A stretch of DNA of 64,000 bases from Anaerolineae bacterium (lineage in GTDB: Bacteria > Chloroflexota > Anaerolineae > Aggregatilineales > J027). Positions 8,758-21,147 of this stretch are shown here, one piece after another. The translations under genes were made by a program, and so were the position numbers. Numbering within the stretch: the stretch's first letter is position 1; each line of letters begins with the position of its first letter. The notes under the pieces are model-generated. The model was not told the origin of the DNA. It made no database searches and was given only the letters and a program-made list of their open reading frames with translations. Location: assembly GCA_021463865.1 (NCBI GenBank), contig JAJTXY010000008.1, forward strand, positions 62,001 to 126,000. Reading direction: 5' to 3'.

Positions 8758-11262
8758 TTATGATGGCGCTATAGTATCAGCAGCACAGCGAAAACCATAG
8801 GTTTCCCCAGCCACAAATGGGCTGTCGGAAGCACGGGCCGTCGTGCGAAAATCAGCAACGGTGGTAATCCCATCCGCCGATGGCCCTCCACCACGCAGTA
8901 CCCGCATATCACCCCGTCGTGGGCCAGTGGGGTTTTCTTCAGTGCTTTCTGAATAGTAGGTCTCACTATACCAATCCTGTACCCACTCACGGGCATTACC
9001 AGCCATGTCCAATAACCCAAAGGGGCTGACTCCGTTGGGATATGTCCCTACAGCGACCATACTGCCCGCATTAATATCGTTCACATTGGCCGGAGTCGTT
9101 CCCTCGACCACTAACTCATTGCCCCAAGGATATTGGCGACCATCCGTCCCACGCGCCGCAAATTCCCACTCGGCTTCGGTTGGCAGGCGTTTTCCGGCCC
9201 ATTCACAATAGGCCACTGCGCCTTCCCATGTCACACCCGTCACGGGGAATTGCTCCTCACCTTCGGCAAAACGAGCCAATTCCGAGGCGGGGCGTTGGAT
9301 AATGGTCACATCATCAGAATATAAATTGAGCCATGCAGGGGGTACTTCCGGTGCGACTTCGCCGGGGTTACTGTTCGGGCGACCATCATAGCCGCTGCCT
9401 GAGCCTTGAAAGAGCAAAATCATAATTTCATAGCCATCAGGGTCAACATAACCGTCGGCGGGGTTTGCCAAAGAGTAGCAGCATGTCCCATCGGCTTTTA
9501 AGATGCGGCCTTCAGCATCCCGCACCCGATGTGTCACCATGACATGCGCCCCAATATCGAAATAGAGCTGCTCGTCGCCGACGTACACATCAGCCGACCC
9601 CCATGTTGAAACGGGTGAGACAATCAGCGGCAAAAAGCTGCCTTCCTGTCCACTATCCCCGTGCATGAGTACATGGTCGCCAACCCCCCCCTCTTGAAAG
9701 GACGAGGTTTCAAAAAAGACACGCTGCTCGATCCGAATATCCCCTTCAACCTCAAGGCCACTTTCGGGGGTAATTTTGCCCGTAAACTCAGCAATGACCT
9801 CGCCCTCATTAGTGTCGGCGTCCAAGTTAATGGTGATCTTGCCATCCTCATAGGGGGTAATTTCTGCCCCATCATAGGATTGGCGGTTATCCACATTGCC
9901 GACTACATAGATATTGTTGCCTTTAACTTCCCACACTGAGGGTTCGGCGCGTACCCATGTCGAGGGTTCGGGGGAGCCGGTTTCGACCACAAACCCCATA
10001 TATTGTTCGTTGGTGACTTCGGTTAAGTCCATAAAATAGGGCGATAGGGAAACACGGTGCGAAGGGCTTTCTGCTTCCTCGCCACTACTGGATCCCATGT
10101 TAAATGTCCCACCGGGGATATAGGCCATACCAGCCGGAGCAGACGGGTTCGGCTCTTCTTTGTCGGCCTTGTCTTGATTATCGTCTCCCCCCAAAAGCAC
10201 CCACAGGAGTGCCAATACCACGATCAAAACCACTGCCGCCGACACCCCCCCCAACAAAAATATATTACGCTGTTGGGGCTTGGTGATAATATTCGGGACA
10301 GAGGGACGAGACCCTTCTGGAATCACGATGGTGCTATGGGTCATATCTATTTGGGCAGTGGCGCGTGGCATAGCCGATTGGGTGATCTCTTCGGTGCTGA
10401 CAAAAATGGTCTTGTCCGACAATTCACCCGAATTGGCATCTAGTTCTTTAATCATTTCCTCAACGGTGGCGTAACGCTGTTCGGGGTCTTTGGCAAGTGC
10501 CCGCAAAATGACCGCCTCGGTGCGAAAATCCAACGATTCGACGGTTTTGCTGGGGCGGGGGGGCTGGGCTTGGATATGCTGAATGAGTACATTGGCAAAT
10601 GAATCACCTTTAAAGGGCACGTCGCCCGTCACCATCTCATAGAGCACAATGCCCAGCGAATAAATATCGGTGCGCGGTGTGATTTCCTGTCCGGAGGCTT
10701 GTTCAGGGGCCATGTAAGCAGGTGTACCGGAGCTTGTGCCTGTTGCCGTTAGTCGCACATGTCCGGCCAGTTTTGCCAAACCAAAATCGGTGAGGACAGC
10801 CCGATCGCCCACCAGCACAATATTGGCGGGCTTGATGTCGCGGTGAATCACCCCATTTTTATGGGCATAGTCCACGGCCATGCCGATTTGTCGAAAAATA
10901 CTCATGGCACGCGCGACAGGCATTCCGTTAGGGTGGTCGGAAATTAAATCCCGCAAGGTGCTCCCTTCCAAGATTTCCATCACCATATAGTAAATGTTGC
11001 CCTGCACCTCAAAATCATAGACCCGCACGATGTTGGGATGAGATAAACGCCCGGCGGCTTGGGCTTCCTGTCGAAATCGTACTGACCCATCTTTGCTATC
11101 CACAATCGCGGGGTGCAGCACCTTGATGGCGACATCTTGGCCTATGTCGGGATTATGCGCCCGGTAGACTTCCGCCATGCCGCCGCGCCCTAATAGCCCT
11201 TTAATCTCATATTTGCCCAGTTTAAAGCCGGGTTTTAAATAGCTTAGTGGCGCTTCAGTCAT
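8758..11262 (-). CDS. Ser/Thr protein kinase fused to a formylglycine-enzyme-like domain
   Basis: An 834-residue receptor-like kinase. Residues about 13-275 are a complete Hanks kinase ([38 protein letters not shown]). One membrane helix follows at about 333-358 ([20 protein letters not shown]). The external part starts like an FGE-sulfatase domain ([23 protein letters not shown]), is broken by about 220 residues of different sequence, then resumes ([48 protein letters not shown]). The two active-site cysteines of true FGE appear to be replaced (VADFRTTAR in that region), so sulfatase activation is unlikely and a ligand-sensing role is more plausible. It is probably co-transcribed with 7636-8754. 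Confidence 0.92.
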
Positions 11263-11485: not shown

Positions 11486-12715
11486 ATGTACCCCACCTCC
11501 AAAACTCAGATGGGCATTCAGTTGGCGCAACAGGGACGCCGCCAAGAGGCTTTAGCTTACCTCCGTCAGGCCGTCCAAAGTGAGCCACCGAATGCTGAAG
11601 TGTGGCTTTGGTTGGCGCATGTCTCGCCCGACATTAACGAATATCGCAACTGTGTCTATCAAGCCCTGCTATTAGACGCCAATCACCCTGTTGCCCGGCA
11701 GATGCAAACGGCGCTCAATCAACCAAGTGGGCAACCTAACCCAGCCTATTCCGGCTATTCAGCTTATCCTACCTATCCAGCTTCCCAACCTGCTGCTACG
11801 TCCGTCGCGCAGCCTGCCTATGGGACATATTCGCTTGGGTCATCGCAGCCCTTCTATACGGATAATGCCCTCATCAATAATTTGGAACGCAAGCGCAATC
11901 GGGGACGACGAGTGCGACGTTGGATAGCGCTTCTCTTCTTTTTTGGCATGTTAATTGCCTGTGGGGTCGGCCTGCGATTTTTGTTTCTCTCGGATGCTTT
12001 TGAAGACTGGTTTTACAACCTTAGCTGGTTTGATAACAGCCGAGCTGTCCATTTCACCGTCAATGCCGCCGATAATGTTACCCAATGGGAAATCGAAGTG
12101 GATGTGCCGGAGACATGGCTGCTGGCCGATGAGCGGGTTGAAAGCTGGCGCAGCACCCGTGACCGCCTCAAAACCGATTATTCTTTGGCTGATGGCTCCC
12201 CAACCATTTGGGAAAGCGTGGAAGCCGATATATCACAAATTGTGGTTGACCCTACCAATGGGGTGGTGCAGCCGCCTGTGACCCTAATCGAAACCGATGG
12301 GGATGCCATTGACCGTGATGGACAAAATATCGCCCGCCTGCAATTGACGCAGATCAAAACCTATCCTCCCGGCATACAAGGGGATGACTGCCAAAAGATG
12401 AATGCCATGACGCAGGTTGACCAAGCCACCTTGCAGCCTCAAGCAGACAGTCAGGTGAGTTATAAAGTCCAAAATCAGGCAAATGGGCGCTGTATCTACG
12501 TCTTATACTATCGCAACGAAAATGGGCCTTCCCAGTTGGCCGAAACCGTCTATGTTTTGAAAGTGCCAGTGGATGATCTCACCTATGCGGAATGGCAGTT
12601 GAGCGTCCTTGAGCAAAGCCGTGCCGATTATGAAAGTGCCATTAATAAAATCATTGATACCCTCCAAGTAAGGGCTTCCGTCAATCCAATGCCTACACCC
12701 GAAATCGTCAATTAA
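11486..12715 (+). CDS. TPR-like, single-span membrane protein
   Basis: A 409-residue protein. Residues about 1-75 look like tetratricopeptide-type helices (GIQLAQQGRRQEALAYLRQA, PPNAEVWLWLAHV). A Tyr/Pro/Ala-rich linker (YPTYPASQPA) leads to a basic patch, KRNRGRRVRRW, and one membrane helix near residue 150 (IALLFFFGMLIACGVGLRF). The rest (about 225 residues) should be outside the membrane and matches no domain I know. ATG 11486 is preferred over GTG 11405 because the TPR starts right there, although no strong Shine-Dalgarno is visible. It is divergent from the kinase-FGE gene. The role is unknown; protein interaction is likely. Confidence 0.7.
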   Translation: MYPTSKTQMGIQLAQQGRRQEALAYLRQAVQSEPPNAEVWLWLAHVSPDINEYRNCVYQALLLDANHPVARQMQTALNQPSGQPNPAYSGYSAYPTYPASQPAATSVAQPAYGTYSLGSSQPFYTDNALINNLERKRNRGRRVRRWIALLFFFGMLIACGVGLRFLFLSDAFEDWFYNLSWFDNSRAVHFTVNAADNVTQWEIEVDVPETWLLADERVESWRSTRDRLKTDYSLADGSPTIWESVEADISQIVVDPTNGVVQPPVTLIETDGDAIDRDGQNIARLQLTQIKTYPPGIQGDDCQKMNAMTQVDQATLQPQADSQVSYKVQNQANGRCIYVLYYRNENGPSQLAETVYVLKVPVDDLTYAEWQLSVLEQSRADYESAINKIIDTLQVRASVNPMPTPEIVN

Positions 12716-12963: not shown

Positions 12964-13323
12964 ATGTATACTGCAAATGAACTAATGTTTCCACGACAGG
13001 CAATCCCAGAATTAAGGGCGATGCGCGGCCCGGAATGGCGCGGTTTGGTAGATCGGATTTCGGCACTGCCCGAAACGCATGAAGAAACCCTTGCGTTTAT
13101 GTTGATGATGATTCGTTTGAATGGTTGCCTTGAATGTGAAACGGATAGTTACCGGGCAATGAAGGGATGTGATGCCTGTGCGATTCAAACCCTACGCCGC
13201 TATAAGGGGCCAGATAGTGATCTCATGAAACTTTTCCAACAAGCTCTTGCAGAAATACGTGACCATATTGATGTAATGCCGCCTGTGCGAATACCAACCG
13301 CTAATTTAGTAGCTGTTTTTTGA
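12964..13323 (+). CDS. Small Cys-containing protein of unknown function
   Basis: A 119-residue protein with four cysteines in a compact central stretch: NGCLECETDSYRAMKGCDAC, i.e. C-x2-C-x10-C-x2-C, a spacing that suits a zinc or Fe-S site. The C-terminal half is helical (IQTLRRYKGPDSDLMKLFQQ). No signal peptide or membrane segment is seen. ATG 12964 lies behind an AGAGGGA stretch about 12 nt upstream. A long leader precedes it and a perfect hairpin separates it from the histidine-kinase-like genes. I do not recognise the family. Confidence 0.7.
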   Translation: MYTANELMFPRQAIPELRAMRGPEWRGLVDRISALPETHEETLAFMLMMIRLNGCLECETDSYRAMKGCDACAIQTLRRYKGPDSDLMKLFQQALAEIRDHIDVMPPVRIPTANLVAVF

Positions 13324-13366: not shown

Positions 13367-13400
13367 CAGATGCAAGTTTCTTATAGGGGACTTGCATCTG
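13367..13400 (+). other. Perfect 11-bp hairpin in intergenic region
   Basis: CAGATGCAAGT (13367-13377) and its exact reverse complement ACTTGCATCTG (13390-13400) flank a 12-nt loop. No T-run follows on either strand, so it is not a standard terminator. It may be an mRNA-stability element, a regulator site, or part of the leader of the gene at 13479. Confidence 0.5.
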
Positions 13401-13478
13401 TGCTTTATAGGCTAGGGATAAACCCAAACTAGACGATGGTCTAACCAGATTCAATCGCACCAAAAAGGACAAGCATCG

Positions 13479-14780
13479 TTGTATCGTGAACCAGATTGGG
13501 AAGCCTTAAATGACCTAAACTTCCTGCTGCACAATCGGCTGGTGAGTCCCTTGAATGGCGCATTGTCGGCAATTGAAAAAGCCGCCCCTGCAACCGAGGC
13601 GGATTGGTGGCGCAACCGTGCTACCAGTCAGGTCTCCAACGCCATTAATTTGGTGACTGCTTGGTCGTGGCTTATCCAATACAAAGCGCAGGGGCAAGTC
13701 CCCGAACGCAGCATCCAATCATTCCCCATCCAAAATTTGGCGGATTGGTTGACGATGCAGCTTCAACTCGTTCCGCCGCTGCTTATCGCTAAAAATTTTC
13801 TTATCCGAGCCAATCAACCCGCCCTTCAAGAAGCCCTGTATCTGTTGTACGATGTCGCCGCCAGTCAGGGCACGACTACCAAATTGATCTTGGATACGGG
13901 GTCGAATGGCGTACTGTTCCGCATCCGTTTTACTCGTCTGCGTGAAGCTAAACCATTTACTTCATTAGAGGAAATGGAGACCTCACTGGGTCAACATTGG
14001 CGGGGCAAGATTATCACCTTTGAACTGCGCATGGCCCGCGACTTCTTACGGATGAACGCCAGCGAACTGCAACTACGGGATAATGGCTCCAAGGTCGAAT
14101 TTGTCTTTGTCATCCACCGCAAATCCAAAGCCGAAAATGGGGAGACCGAGAGCGGTTTGCTGCTTCCATCGCATGACAGCCAAGCTGTCATCAATATCGC
14201 TGAAGCCACTTTGCCGATGCCCCATACCTTAGAACAAGGACCCATTACTAGCGAATCCACCACTGCTCATCTTAAAGGCATTTCTACCCCAGAAGAAACA
14301 TGGGTCTTAAAACCAACCACCATCCGGGCCTCTGCCGAAATCCCGACAGCCGCCTCATCCATACGGGCAATGGTTCCCGATACCCCCTTCCGCCCCGGTG
14401 GTTGGTATCGTCCCAAACGTGCCTCAACACCGCCTGTATTACCCTCGGCCACTCCCACGCCAGAGGCAGTCTCGGTCATTGTTAAAGTCGAATTACCGCC
14501 ACCCGCCGAACCGGGAGATTTTAAGGTGAAATCGCGCCGCCTAGCCTCCAAAACTACCAGCCAATCCCTGCCTCAAGTGACGATTACGACGGAAGCACCC
14601 TCGGTTTCGGCCACTGGGCCGCAAGAAATTTTAGCCGAAGCCCCTTCGGAAAATAAAGATTCACCTGCACCAACCCAAACGCAGGAAGCCGAACCACCTG
14701 TTGATACCCGATTGCAAGCCAGCAGCCCCGATTCTAGCGGGCAAGAAAGCTTAGAGAGGAATTATGCCAATGGATTATAA
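13479..14780 (+). CDS. Degenerate histidine-kinase-like protein (first of a pair)
   Basis: A 433-residue protein. Residues about 1-50 resemble a DHp helix (LNDLNFLLHNRLVSPLNGAL, compare SHELRTPLN). About 110-215 has the outline of a HATPase fold: ALQEALYLLYDVAASQG in the N-box position, then FELRMARDFLRMNASELQLR and KVEFVFVIHR near its end. The usual N-box Asn and glycine-rich G boxes are missing, so ATP binding is doubtful. The C-terminal half is Pro/Ala/Thr-rich and looks disordered. It starts at TTG 13479 with AAAGGA about 9 nt upstream. It overlaps the next, similar gene by 17 nt. This reading rests on pattern recognition only. Confidence 0.65.
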   Translation: MYREPDWEALNDLNFLLHNRLVSPLNGALSAIEKAAPATEADWWRNRATSQVSNAINLVTAWSWLIQYKAQGQVPERSIQSFPIQNLADWLTMQLQLVPPLLIAKNFLIRANQPALQEALYLLYDVAASQGTTTKLILDTGSNGVLFRIRFTRLREAKPFTSLEEMETSLGQHWRGKIITFELRMARDFLRMNASELQLRDNGSKVEFVFVIHRKSKAENGETESGLLLPSHDSQAVINIAEATLPMPHTLEQGPITSESTTAHLKGISTPEETWVLKPTTIRASAEIPTAASSIRAMVPDTPFRPGGWYRPKRASTPPVLPSATPTPEAVSVIVKVELPPPAEPGDFKVKSRRLASKTTSQSLPQVTITTEAPSVSATGPQEILAEAPSENKDSPAPTQTQEAEPPVDTRLQASSPDSSGQESLERNYANGL

Positions 14781-16086
14781 GAGTCTACACTGGGAATCAA
14801 TTGCTTTCTTGCAAGAGCATCTCTACCAGCGGCTCACTGATCCGTTATACAAGGCCATCAGTTTCTTAGAATTAGCAGGGGACAAGGAATTTACACTGAG
14901 CAGTCCCAAATTCATCGGGGACGCAAGCCGCAATCTTGAAATCCTAATGATGCTGGTCAAAAGCTGGGCCATCCTGACGGAGTGGAAATTTAAGGGCAGT
15001 GTGGCCGAATCTGAATTTCAGCCATTGGCCCAAGAGAAATTTCCGGAATGGCTGCTCAACGAAATTGGTGAACAGGCCGTTCTGCGCTTGGAACATACCC
15101 GTACTCTAAAAGTTCAGCGCGACACCTTTTTTGAGGGACTTATTTTGCTGGTCAGCATTGCCAAGTCCGTTGGTGAAATCAGCCATGTCATGTCGAATGA
15201 TGCCGAGGAACCTCACACTGGCGTATGGCTGCGGGTTGTATTTAAGCCCCCCAAAGCCGAAGGGTTTCAAAGTCGTGCAGCCGTCTTGGAATACTTGAGC
15301 ACCACAGATTCCTCCACAGAGACCGTTATCCAATATGCGGTTGCGGATGATATGTTTGCCATCAATAACGCACGCTTCAGCCTCCAAAAAAACACGCGCA
15401 CAGGGCATCAAGCCTTTGCCATGCTGCTGCCCGTTGTAGGTCGGCCTGCGTCTAGCCCGCCCAAATTAGCGGATATAACCCCCATGCTGACCCTATCACA
15501 AACGGGGACGCTGGTGATACCCTCTTATCCTCCCGAAACCCCTGCGTCGGCTGTATCCACTGCCGAGGTGGTTGAAACACCGCCTGTTGTATCCACACCT
15601 GAGCCAGAAGCGCCCCTTGTGCCTGCGATTGAACCATTGGCGACGACCATCACACTCGAACCCCCAGCGGTTTTGATCCCAGTCACCGAGGACGATGTTA
15701 TGGCGACCCCGCCTGCCAAGCGACTAACCCTGTTGGAAATTGTTAAACGCACCGAAACCAGCGAGGGGATGGAGGGCGATAAGTCTGAAACCCTGATTAT
15801 CAACCCATTTAAAACAACAGGCATCAATATGACCCCACCCGAACCGCTGACGCTGCCGCCCCAAAGTGAAAATATTCCGGCGGAAAGTGTGCCGCTCAAC
15901 CTGCCCAATGCCGCTGGTATGGGGGCGTTGTCAAAGGCTCTGCTGCAAATGCACGCCGAAGCCAAACTTTCGACTAGCGACCAGACCGAATCGCCTTCTG
16001 AAAGCCGCGATGATGCCACCAATGATTCTTTATCCGGTGGCGAACAACCCAACGACACCAATTCAGGTTCATCCGCCTCCGCTTAA
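14764..16086 (+). CDS. Degenerate histidine-kinase-like protein (second of a pair)
   Basis: A 440-residue paralogue of the preceding protein with the same plan: an N-terminal helix pair (LQEHLYQRLTDPLYKAISFL; LMMLVKSWAILTEWKFKGS), a central region ending in VIQYAVADDMFAINNARFSL and HQAFAMLLPVV (like the last part of a HATPase domain) and a long Pro/Glu/Ser-rich tail. Catalytic ATP-binding motifs are not visible. The ATG at 14764 has AGAGAGGA directly upstream and overlaps the previous gene by 17 nt, so translation is coupled. A strong terminator follows. The pair may form a heterodimer, which is an inference from tandem duplication. Confidence 0.65.
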   Translation: MPMDYKSLHWESIAFLQEHLYQRLTDPLYKAISFLELAGDKEFTLSSPKFIGDASRNLEILMMLVKSWAILTEWKFKGSVAESEFQPLAQEKFPEWLLNEIGEQAVLRLEHTRTLKVQRDTFFEGLILLVSIAKSVGEISHVMSNDAEEPHTGVWLRVVFKPPKAEGFQSRAAVLEYLSTTDSSTETVIQYAVADDMFAINNARFSLQKNTRTGHQAFAMLLPVVGRPASSPPKLADITPMLTLSQTGTLVIPSYPPETPASAVSTAEVVETPPVVSTPEPEAPLVPAIEPLATTITLEPPAVLIPVTEDDVMATPPAKRLTLLEIVKRTETSEGMEGDKSETLIINPFKTTGINMTPPEPLTLPPQSENIPAESVPLNLPNAAGMGALSKALLQMHAEAKLSTSDQTESPSESRDDATNDSLSGGEQPNDTNSGSSASA

Positions 16087-16117: not shown

Positions 16118-16152
16118 ATTCCGAGAGATACACCACCTCTCGGAATTTTTTT
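16118..16152 (+). terminator. Rho-independent terminator
   Basis: ATTCCGAGAG and CTCTCGGAAT form a stem of about 10 bp with a loop of about 9 nt, followed by TTTTTTTT. It closes the transcript of the histidine-kinase-like pair. Confidence 0.9.
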
Positions 16153-16156
16153 CTGC

Positions 16157-18050: not shown

Positions 18051-19628
18051 ATGCGCCGCGATTTCGTGTGGATGTTTGGGTTGGCTGTGCTAGTCGGCTG
18101 TGTATTGATTGTCCTCTTGGATGAACCCGGCTACACCGACGCCTATTATTATTTCAATGCGGGTCAACGCTTGGCCCAAGGCGACGGCCTAACTGACCCC
18201 TATGTGTGGGTTTATCTCAACCCACCTGACCAAATTCCTGCCCCCAGTCACACCTATTGGATGCCATTGGCCTCGATTCTCAGCGCAGGCAGCATGGCGA
18301 TTTTTGGGGCGAATTTTAACGCTGCCCAAATCCCATCGGTTTTAGCATTGGCAGGGTTGGTCGTGTTGGGTGGTTGGCTCGGCTATACACTAGGCGGTAC
18401 ACGTCGCTATGGCTGGATGACGGCCTTAATCGTCCTCTTTGGCGGATTTTTCTTCCCCTTTTGGGTTAACACCGATACGTTTGCGCTCTATGGTTTGGTC
18501 GGGGCCGGGGCGCTGATCGCAATGGGGCTTGGCTATCAAAAACACGATTGGCGTTGGTTTGCGCTGAGTGGGGCACTCAGCGGCCTTGCTCATCTCACCC
18601 GCGCCGATGGCCTATTGCTATTATTGGTCGCCCTCTTATTGACCCTATGGCCTCGACCCAATTGGAAAGCCGCCGCCACCACCCTTGTCGCCTATTTAAT
18701 AGTCATGCTGGCGTGGTTTATCCGCAATCTCGATGTTATCAACTCGCCCATTCCGAGCGGCGGGATCAAGACAGCCTTCCTGCGGAGCTACAACGAATTG
18801 TTCGCCTATCCGGTGGATTGGTCATTCTCGAATTTTCTAGATTGGGGCATGGCAAATATTCTGGAATCGCGCTGGAATGCCCTGCTGAATAATTTTGGGA
18901 CGTGGCTGGCGGTTGAAACATGGATTCTCATTGGCCCATTTGCACTGGCGGCCCTGTGGAAACGCCGCAAAAATCCACTGCTGACCGGATTCTGGATTTA
19001 TGCGTTGAGCCTGCATCTCGCCATGACCTTTGTCTTTGCTTTCCCCGGCTATCGCGGTGGATTGTTCCATTCCTCATCGGCCCTTGTACCGTTCTGGGCC
19101 ATCTTGGGGATCATCGGTCTGGACGATGCGATTAACTGGGCGGCCCAACGGCGCAAATGGAAACCCGCCGAAGCACGCATGGTCTTTGGTACATCGGCCT
19201 TAGTCTTGGTGATCCTACTCAGTGGCTTTGCATGGTTGGCCCAAGCCCGCAATCGTGGATTAGCCCCGGACTATGATGAAATCAACACCTATTTGCCGTC
19301 TGATGCCGTTATGATGGCGAATGACCCGCCCGCATGGTATTTTCATACTGGGTTGATGAGCGTCAATTTGCCCGACGCGCCGCTTGACCGCCTGCCAGAA
19401 ATCGCCAGCCGTTATTGTGTCACCCATCTGGTGATTGACAAAAATGTCACCGATGCGTTTGTCCCGCTCATTGATAAAGGCGCACCTCCCCCGCCATTTT
19501 TAGAGCCAATTGCCCATTTAGATAACAATACAGAAGGAACCGGAGACGATGTCCGTATCTATCGCTTCATTGAAGAAGCCATTCCCTATGCCAGCCGCTG
19601 CCACTCGAATGGGAATCCGCCCAATTGA
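18051..19628 (+). CDS. GT-C-fold membrane glycosyltransferase-like protein
   Basis: A 525-residue protein with about 11 membrane helices and the plan of the PMT/ArnT (GT39-like) family, which transfers sugars from lipid-linked donors outside the membrane. After the first helix comes an acidic YTDAYYYFNAGQRLAQGDGL, comparable to the catalytic loop of the family, then HLTRADGLLLLL in a typical internal loop. The soluble C-terminal part (about 400-525) includes YLPSDAVMMANDPPAWYF. It overlaps the next gene by 80 nt if that starts at 19549. The substrate is unknown. Confidence 0.8.
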   Translation: MRRDFVWMFGLAVLVGCVLIVLLDEPGYTDAYYYFNAGQRLAQGDGLTDPYVWVYLNPPDQIPAPSHTYWMPLASILSAGSMAIFGANFNAAQIPSVLALAGLVVLGGWLGYTLGGTRRYGWMTALIVLFGGFFFPFWVNTDTFALYGLVGAGALIAMGLGYQKHDWRWFALSGALSGLAHLTRADGLLLLLVALLLTLWPRPNWKAAATTLVAYLIVMLAWFIRNLDVINSPIPSGGIKTAFLRSYNELFAYPVDWSFSNFLDWGMANILESRWNALLNNFGTWLAVETWILIGPFALAALWKRRKNPLLTGFWIYALSLHLAMTFVFAFPGYRGGLFHSSSALVPFWAILGIIGLDDAINWAAQRRKWKPAEARMVFGTSALVLVILLSGFAWLAQARNRGLAPDYDEINTYLPSDAVMMANDPPAWYFHTGLMSVNLPDAPLDRLPEIASRYCVTHLVIDKNVTDAFVPLIDKGAPPPPFLEPIAHLDNNTEGTGDDVRIYRFIEEAIPYASRCHSNGNPPN

Positions 19629-21147
19629 CCTTTTGCTGCTGCTGGTCTCGGCCCTCAGCGTTATCGGCTATACCATTTTTGCGGCGGTCTATGATCGGGC
19701 AGGATTTCCACTGGACGATTCTTGGATTCATCAGGTCTATGCCCGCAACCTAGCACGACATGGCGAATGGGCCTATATCCCCGGTCAACCTTCGGCAGCT
19801 TCGAGTGGGCCACTGTACACTGCCGCGCTTGCCATTGGGCAGTTGTTGGGTCTCTCGCCTGTGTTGTGGGCACATCTATTAGGGATAATCGCGCTGGCAG
19901 TAGCGGGGTCGGTCAGTATGCGTCTGGCCGAACAACTCTTTCCGAATCTTAAATGGGTTGGGTCGGGCACAGGATTGTTGATTATTCTATCGTGGCATTT
20001 GATTTGGGCGGCTGCGTCGGGCATGGAGACCATGTGGTTTATCACCTTCAGCCTCATTTTAATCTGGCGCTTTTGGCAAGAACCCAGTCTGCCCAAAACC
20101 ACCCGTCAAGAGGTGTTAAAAAATGGCATGGTGGTCGGATTTATCAGCGGTCTCTGTTATCTCAATCGGCCTGAAGGATTGTTATTATTAGGTCTCGGGG
20201 GGCTAATTGTTTGGGCCTGCCGTATCTACCCCGATTTCAAAACGTTTGTGACATGGGGTGTCGGCGTAGCAATCGGGGCGGCGATTCTCATGATTCCCTA
20301 TATCGCCATCAACCTATCCCTGATTGGCGAACCCCTTCCTTCGACTGTTCGCGCCAAAATTGCTTATAACGCAGGCTTCCGCGAGGAATTTATTGGCACG
20401 CGCATTTGGAAGATGGGCATTACGATGTTAGCCGGAGCGCAGTTGATGTGGGTACCCGCTGTCATTGTAGGAGTAGCCGCCACCGCCCGTCAAAAAATCG
20501 CTTTAAAATGGTTGTATCTTCTGCCCATTCTGTGGGGTCTGGCTCATTTCACCGTCTATCTGATTGTCATGCCCGTTTATTTTCATCATGGGCGTTATGT
20601 CATGCCTGTTTTGCCGACCCTACTGCTCTATGGCATGGGGGGCACATGGATCATTGTGGAATGGGGCAAAAATACCGCTCCCAAGCGTGTTCTGACGCGC
20701 ACCCTTGCTCTAAGTGCGATTCTGGCTGTCCCCGGTTTTTGGTGGATTGGTGGCAAGGTCTATGGTGAAGATGTCAAACTTATCAACACCGAGATGGTCA
20801 AGGCATCTAAATGGGTCGAGCTTCATGTCAACAAAGAGGATGTTTTTGCGGTGCATGACATTGGGGCATTGGGCTATTTTGCGCCACGTGAGCATGTGTT
20901 CGATATTGCAGGTCTGGTGAGTCCAGAGGTCGTGCCAATCATCACTGACCGCGAAAAAACGATGGAATTGATGTGTAAGAAGGGGGCGAAGTGGATGATG
21001 GTTTTGACGACCCAAAATCCGGCGGATGACGACGACCCCAGAGCCGAATTGGTCTACATTACCAACTCACCCTATCTCAAAGAAATAGCAGGCGACAACA
21101 TGAAAGTCTATCGCCTGCATTTTGAAAATGGCTGTGGGGAGGATTAA
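19549..21147 (+). CDS. GT-C-fold membrane glycosyltransferase-like protein
   Basis: A 532-residue multi-helix protein related to the one before it. The first external loop carries FPLDDSWIHQVYARNLARHG, a clear GT39/ArnT-type acidic motif, and CYLNRPEGLLLLGLGG matches the internal loop seen in its neighbour. The C-terminus (about 410-532) is soluble (VHDIGALGYFAPREHVFDIA). ATG 19549 has GGAG 4-5 nt upstream but means an 80-nt overlap; ATG 19588 or 19609 are alternatives. Its TAA shares bases with the stop of the convergent lipoprotein gene. Confidence 0.82.
   Translation: MSVSIASLKKPFPMPAAATRMGIRPIDLLLLLVSALSVIGYTIFAAVYDRAGFPLDDSWIHQVYARNLARHGEWAYIPGQPSAASSGPLYTAALAIGQLLGLSPVLWAHLLGIIALAVAGSVSMRLAEQLFPNLKWVGSGTGLLIILSWHLIWAAASGMETMWFITFSLILIWRFWQEPSLPKTTRQEVLKNGMVVGFISGLCYLNRPEGLLLLGLGGLIVWACRIYPDFKTFVTWGVGVAIGAAILMIPYIAINLSLIGEPLPSTVRAKIAYNAGFREEFIGTRIWKMGITMLAGAQLMWVPAVIVGVAATARQKIALKWLYLLPILWGLAHFTVYLIVMPVYFHHGRYVMPVLPTLLLYGMGGTWIIVEWGKNTAPKRVLTRTLALSAILAVPGFWWIGGKVYGEDVKLINTEMVKASKWVELHVNKEDVFAVHDIGALGYFAPREHVFDIAGLVSPEVVPIITDREKTMELMCKKGAKWMMVLTTQNPADDDDPRAELVYITNSPYLKEIAGDNMKVYRLHFENGCGED

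Follow-up and report, generated by a model that had tools for sequence, protein, structure and literature searches.

The window, a 64,000-nucleotide stretch of a contig from an Anaerolineae genome (Chloroflexota), carries two adjacent genes, here called A and B, whose products each have a folded N-terminal part of ~220 residues followed by a tail of ~215 residues rich in Pro, Thr, Ser and Glu (Table 1). Their reading frames overlap by 17 nt, the TTG start codon of A is preceded by AAAAAGGA, and the pair shares one intrinsic terminator, in which the hairpin proper spans 16118-16146; a search of Rfam returned no match. The proteins are paralogous by BLASTP (E = 2e-11) and by profile-profile comparison with hhalign (E = 2.5e-28 across 211 columns), and six invariant residues (W7, R20, L65, W90, E118 and G131) are common to A and B. 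The coordinates, paralogy, overlap and common terminator given for the pair in an earlier note on this DNA are thus confirmed.

Table 1. Features of the A/B locus; positions are those of the window.
Feature	Position	Strand	Remarks
Divergent Ser/Thr protein kinase fused to an FGE-sulfatase domain	8758-11262	-	
TPR membrane protein	11486-12715	+	TPR Pfam matches; lineage-specific neighbor, not a constant part
c1, upstream partner of A/B	12964-13323	+	119 aa; 155 nt 5' of A
Perfect 11-bp hairpin between c1 and A	13367-13400	+	conserved in the genus
A, pseudo-histidine kinase, first gene of the pair	13479-14780	+	433 aa, TTG start
A folded domain (DHp-like helix pair and degenerate, HATPase-like CA domain)	13488-14132	+	no catalytic residues
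A disordered tail	14133-14777	+	acidic-Thr-x-x-[ILV] motifs
B, pseudo-histidine kinase, second gene of the pair	14764-16086	+	440 aa
B folded domain, homologue of the A domain	14782-15441	+	hhalign of A vs. B, clade support
B disordered tail	15448-16083	+	contains SETLIINPF
Intrinsic terminator common to A and B	16118-16153	+	10-bp stem, then T7

Among 154 genomes of the order to which the window's genome belongs, 31 encode A and/or B, and these fall in four families (f1, f2, f4 and f5), across which both the intact frames and the synteny of the genes are kept. No relatives were found among 396 genomes sampled from the rest of the class and 400 from the phylum, nor did we find a description of the A/B family in the open-licence literature. 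B forms a single clade with support of 1.000, so that one duplication accounts for the pair and B is derived once from A. Some lineages have A alone and others B alone, and in one genome (G005) the two are fused in a single protein (L038 1015-2733). The earlier note had proposed to look for conservation of the genes together in other Chloroflexota, and within the order this is borne out. It had also listed a small C-x2-C-x10-C-x2-C protein ahead of A, which is c1, and had overlooked how nearly invariant this partner is: c1 lies directly upstream of A or B, within ~0.3 kb, in 30 of the 31 genomes, the sole exception being a contig of G465 that bears A with no c1 upstream.

Other neighbors vary with lineage. 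The TPR membrane protein, which the earlier note had placed in the possible assembly, adjoins A/B only in f1, the window's own family, and is therefore ruled out as a core partner. The kinase-FGE-sulfatase gene, which is divergent from the TPR gene and has SDKTIFV and STIVIP in its linker, neighbors A/B in the window's genus only. Neighborhood comparison revealed no response-regulator gene constantly linked to the pair, and an apparent protein cluster (c19) beside A in f4 and f5 proved to be an antisense reading of c1. In part of f1, a gene for a YkgJ-type CxxCxxCC zinc/iron protein stands directly 3' of the c1/A/B genes (L035 7185-7703, L048 10537-11052, L177 4110-4589), and in G006 it follows c1 alone. 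Farther downstream in the window (18051-21147), two long membrane-protein reading frames of 525 and 532 aa, glycosyltransferase-like at a glance, share 80 nt that are read in different frames.

The four cysteines of c1 (C55-x2-C58-x10-C69-x2-C72) are invariant in their spacing. The gene is present in 142 of the 154 genomes of the order, in most of which it stands without A/B, and hence c1 does not need the pair. Divergent A-like genes were absent 3' of c1 at the sampled loci of A-less genomes; the one match, in G498, belongs to a genome already counted as A-bearing. In the predicted model c1 is helical with its Cys loop at low confidence, and a fold search against solved structures gave no match of weight, which leaves a known fold possible. 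The same search lent no support to a kinship with CMD/AhpD proteins, which we had considered from a resemblance to their NGCxxC motif, and this candidate was dropped.

The c1 family is widespread in Anaerolineae and was named by none of the libraries used. Outside the order, it is flanked in several Anaerolineae genomes by nuoI on one side and mrp/apbC, a gene for an Fe-S carrier, on the other (names read from the sequences rather than from a profile search), and a second c1 copy in the window's genome also precedes mrp (contig C59:134490-134795, L092). A gene for a membrane Fe-S (CCG/Fer4) oxidoreductase adjoins A in f5 and c1 in G377 (L044 7258-9303, L043 7326-9407, L094 5967-7994). Together, these neighborhoods hint that c1 may handle metal or redox state, and a possible role for the family is Fe-S or metal handling. 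The spacer between c1 and A contains, besides the hairpin listed in Table 1, a TAGAC-N4-GTCTA inverted repeat at 13430-13443. Within the genus conservation of both elements is high, with a mean column identity of 92%. The hairpin is possibly an attenuator or the terminator of c1, and the inverted repeat may be an operator.

Searches of Pfam (including the HisKA and HATPase_c profiles, which match neither A nor B), PHROGs, PADLOC, PDB sequences and NCBIfam found no match better than chance to A or c1, and B, run against these apart from NCBIfam, likewise went unrecognized; among the PADLOC models, no known anti-phage defense protein was recognized. The AlphaFold2 model of A, built from 21 aligned sequences of the window and the loci, has a pLDDT of 87 and a pTM of 0.84. 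Its helices 7-35 and 38-71 form a DHp-like hairpin, and the elements that follow, among them an N-box helix (113-130) and a closing strand (205-214, the KVEFVFVIHR region), come in the order of a histidine-kinase CA domain. As modeled, the ~218 N-terminal residues of A thus show a histidine-kinase core, i.e., a two-helix DHp hairpin and then a Bergerat-type CA domain.

Foldseek returned 226 matches to the model at E <= 0.001. The best PDB matches listed are histidine kinases, with the WalK/YycG, HK853 and CpxA cores foremost, and proteins that share their core, including DivL chains, ChpT (4fmt) and NifL; with WalK (4u7o_B), VIA-align gave Z = 14.7 and an rmsd of 3.5 over 196 residues. The helix pair and CA outline previously read from the letters of A are therefore borne out, as is the proposed structural similarity to DHp/CA folds. 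Over its whole length, a profile of A also aligned with one built from true kinases of its own genome (hhalign P = 2.3e-6); the score was 46, whereas the highest among 100 column shuffles was 25.8. The profile of B had no match to these kinases by itself, and its assignment to the fold follows from homology with A. Both proteins begin at the DHp helix, and N-terminal PAS sensor domains are absent judging by the reading frames and Pfam.

Unlike WalK/YycG, HK853 and CpxA, A and B lack all catalytic motifs and match no HMM library. None of the aligned relatives has a His at the phosphoacceptor position, where N, S, R, Q, K or E stands instead; this loss was overlooked in the earlier note. The missing N-box Asn and G-box glycines that it did report hold in every aligned relative: the Asn position is taken by hydrophobic or small residues, and DTGxG (G1) and GLGL (G2) have no counterpart. 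These absences combined indicate a family of dead kinases that is not one of His-phosphotransferases either, and by known mechanisms neither an active kinase nor a phosphotransferase of the ChpT/Spo0B type would be expected from its sequences. The same note had called the proteins decayed. If this is taken to mean degenerating, it is contradicted by dN/dS in the genus, which is 0.03-0.10 for the folded domains and 0.06-0.17 for the tails, so that A and B are being preserved. They fit the pseudo-histidine kinases of the DivL type, in which the kinase-core fold is kept by selection after loss of the catalytic motifs, and we file them as a variant of that class; the variant itself is new.

The tails are disordered by composition, as had been suggested: 75-78% of their residues are disorder-promoting vs. 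61-63% in the domains, and 13-14% are Pro. They align poorly yet repeat short motifs, namely ETLI[IV]PPP (three variants of which occur in the B protein of G462), TLI[IV]PVKLPxPxPP, RETQ[ST]xRPV and TQP[ILV]. In most of them a Thr follows closely on an acidic residue, and the residue at +3 is aliphatic or a large hydrophobic one. These conserved, Thr-specific motifs had also escaped the earlier reading. We counted occurrences of an acidic residue within three positions before T, followed by x-x-[ILV], in 27 non-redundant tails and compared them with local shuffles. The motif occurs 51 times vs. 22.9 expected, with none of 1000 shuffles as high, a figure that overstates independence because the tails are related by descent and the motif was noticed before the test. 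With Ser in place of Thr there is no enrichment (17 vs. 18.8 expected), nor is there for Thr with an aliphatic residue at +2 or +4 (z = 1.7 and -1.5; 0.8 at +5). Enrichment is seen in the tails of both A (z = 5.3) and B (z = 3.4); among the families it peaks in f4 (z = 6.0), is marginal for f5 (2.1), and stays weak for f2 (0.8) and the window's own f1 (1.4). Candidate phosphothreonine (pThr) peptides in the tails include DKSETLIINPF, LTRETQTLRPV and SETLIIPPPDLKRRL.

Other proteins of the same loci have no such enrichment (ratio 1.06). Linkers of Ser/Thr kinases are a frequent site of ligands for FHA domains, and those of 21 such kinases from the window's genome were meant as a positive control; there the motif was found 8 times vs. 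10.0 expected, which makes the enrichment specific to the A/B tails but leaves it with no positive control.

The pattern itself resembles the FHA-ligand segments of bacterial Ser/Thr-kinase substrates, with an acidic residue, Thr and not Ser, and an aliphatic residue at +3. FHA ligands obey a pT+3 rule, pTxxD or pTxxI/V (PMC6468809); FHA domains are specific for pThr and not pSer (PMC3146460), and in mycobacteria most phosphosites are pThr flanked by acidic residues (PMC6554272). The window's genome yields 29 matches to FHA domains and 33 to protein kinases. From the Thr-only enrichment at +3, these ligand rules and the presence of both protein classes in the genome, we infer that the A/B tails are putative FHA docking sites, whose phosphorylation and FHA binding, unlike those of the known ligand segments, are predicted. 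A double-FHA gene lies directly 3' of A in G019 (L041 11275-11976), the only genome where the two are adjacent, and an FHA gene lies ~3 kb away in G044; with 16-32 FHA matches per genome, such adjacency alone is no proof of FHA use.

What the pair does can be read in several ways, two of which fail. That A and B are pseudogenes, or functionless decaying kinases, would agree with the loss of all catalytic residues, but the low dN/dS over domain and tail rules this out, and the intact frames and the synteny across four families also speak against it; we give the idea practically no weight. A histidine phosphotransferase of the ChpT/Spo0B kind would be an HK-like dimer passing phosphate via a DHp histidine. 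ChpT is of the same fold class and among the structural matches of A, and its CA-like domain binds no ATP (PMC3433190). ChpT and Spo0B, with their dimeric HK-like cores, nonetheless keep the phosphorylatable His that A and B never have, which rules out transfer of this kind and makes the reading highly improbable.

DivL of Caulobacter offers a closer parallel, since its phosphoacceptor His is replaced and it retains the DHp/CA fold without kinase activity while reading DivK~P (PMC4211667). By analogy, the dead core of A/B might bind a response regulator, perhaps phosphorylated, and relay its state, the tails being mere linkers. The DivL chains among the matches of A favor such a sensor. However, DivL has PAS sensor domains, which A and B lack, and no response-regulator gene is constantly linked to the pair; nor does DivL share the complete absence of N- and G-boxes, the long disordered tails, the tandem paralogues or the place beside c1. 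A DivL-like sensor also leaves the tail motifs unexplained, and we consider it unlikely. Somewhat less unlikely, if still doubtful, is a scaffold whose tail motifs bind a partner other than an FHA domain, for example as unphosphorylated motifs that bind c1 or another protein, with Thr conserved for other reasons. The recurrence of several motif types and the negative kinase linkers agree with that, but the contrast between Thr and Ser and the exact +3 spacing fit pThr readers best.

We therefore favor, at a probability of about 0.5, an A:B pseudokinase scaffold partnered with c1 whose tails are phosphorylated on Thr by Ser/Thr kinases and recruit FHA proteins. That A and B act as a scaffold, as the earlier note proposed, is plausible and indeed likely. 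In the favored scheme they would be soluble, sensorless and catalytically dead histidine-kinase cores forming a dimeric scaffold. Their DHp hairpins would pair into an A:A dimer in genomes that have only A and, where B is also present, preferentially into A:B, as the overlapping genes and the one natural A-B fusion suggest. The complex would bind c1, whose four cysteines likely hold a metal or react. The cell's Ser/Thr kinases would phosphorylate the tails on the Thr of acidic-T-x-x-[ILV] motifs and so create docking sites for FHA-domain proteins. The pair would thereby link a Cys4 sensor to phosphothreonine signaling via a re-purposed two-component fold. The widest form of the proposal, an adaptor joining two worlds of protein phosphorylation, with a dead HK-core heterodimer, a Cys4 redox or metal protein and pThr tail platforms for FHA domains all in place, we advance only tentatively, as a possibility with the odds against it.

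Few pseudo-histidine kinases are known, DivL being one of them. The A/B family, found in 31 genomes within a single Chloroflexota order, adds a case with no sensor, phosphoacceptor or nucleotide-site motifs, which stands beside a conserved small Cys4 protein and whose tails bear Thr-specific, docking-like motifs. If these tails bind FHA proteins, a two-component fold would have been converted to an adaptor for Ser/Thr-kinase signaling.
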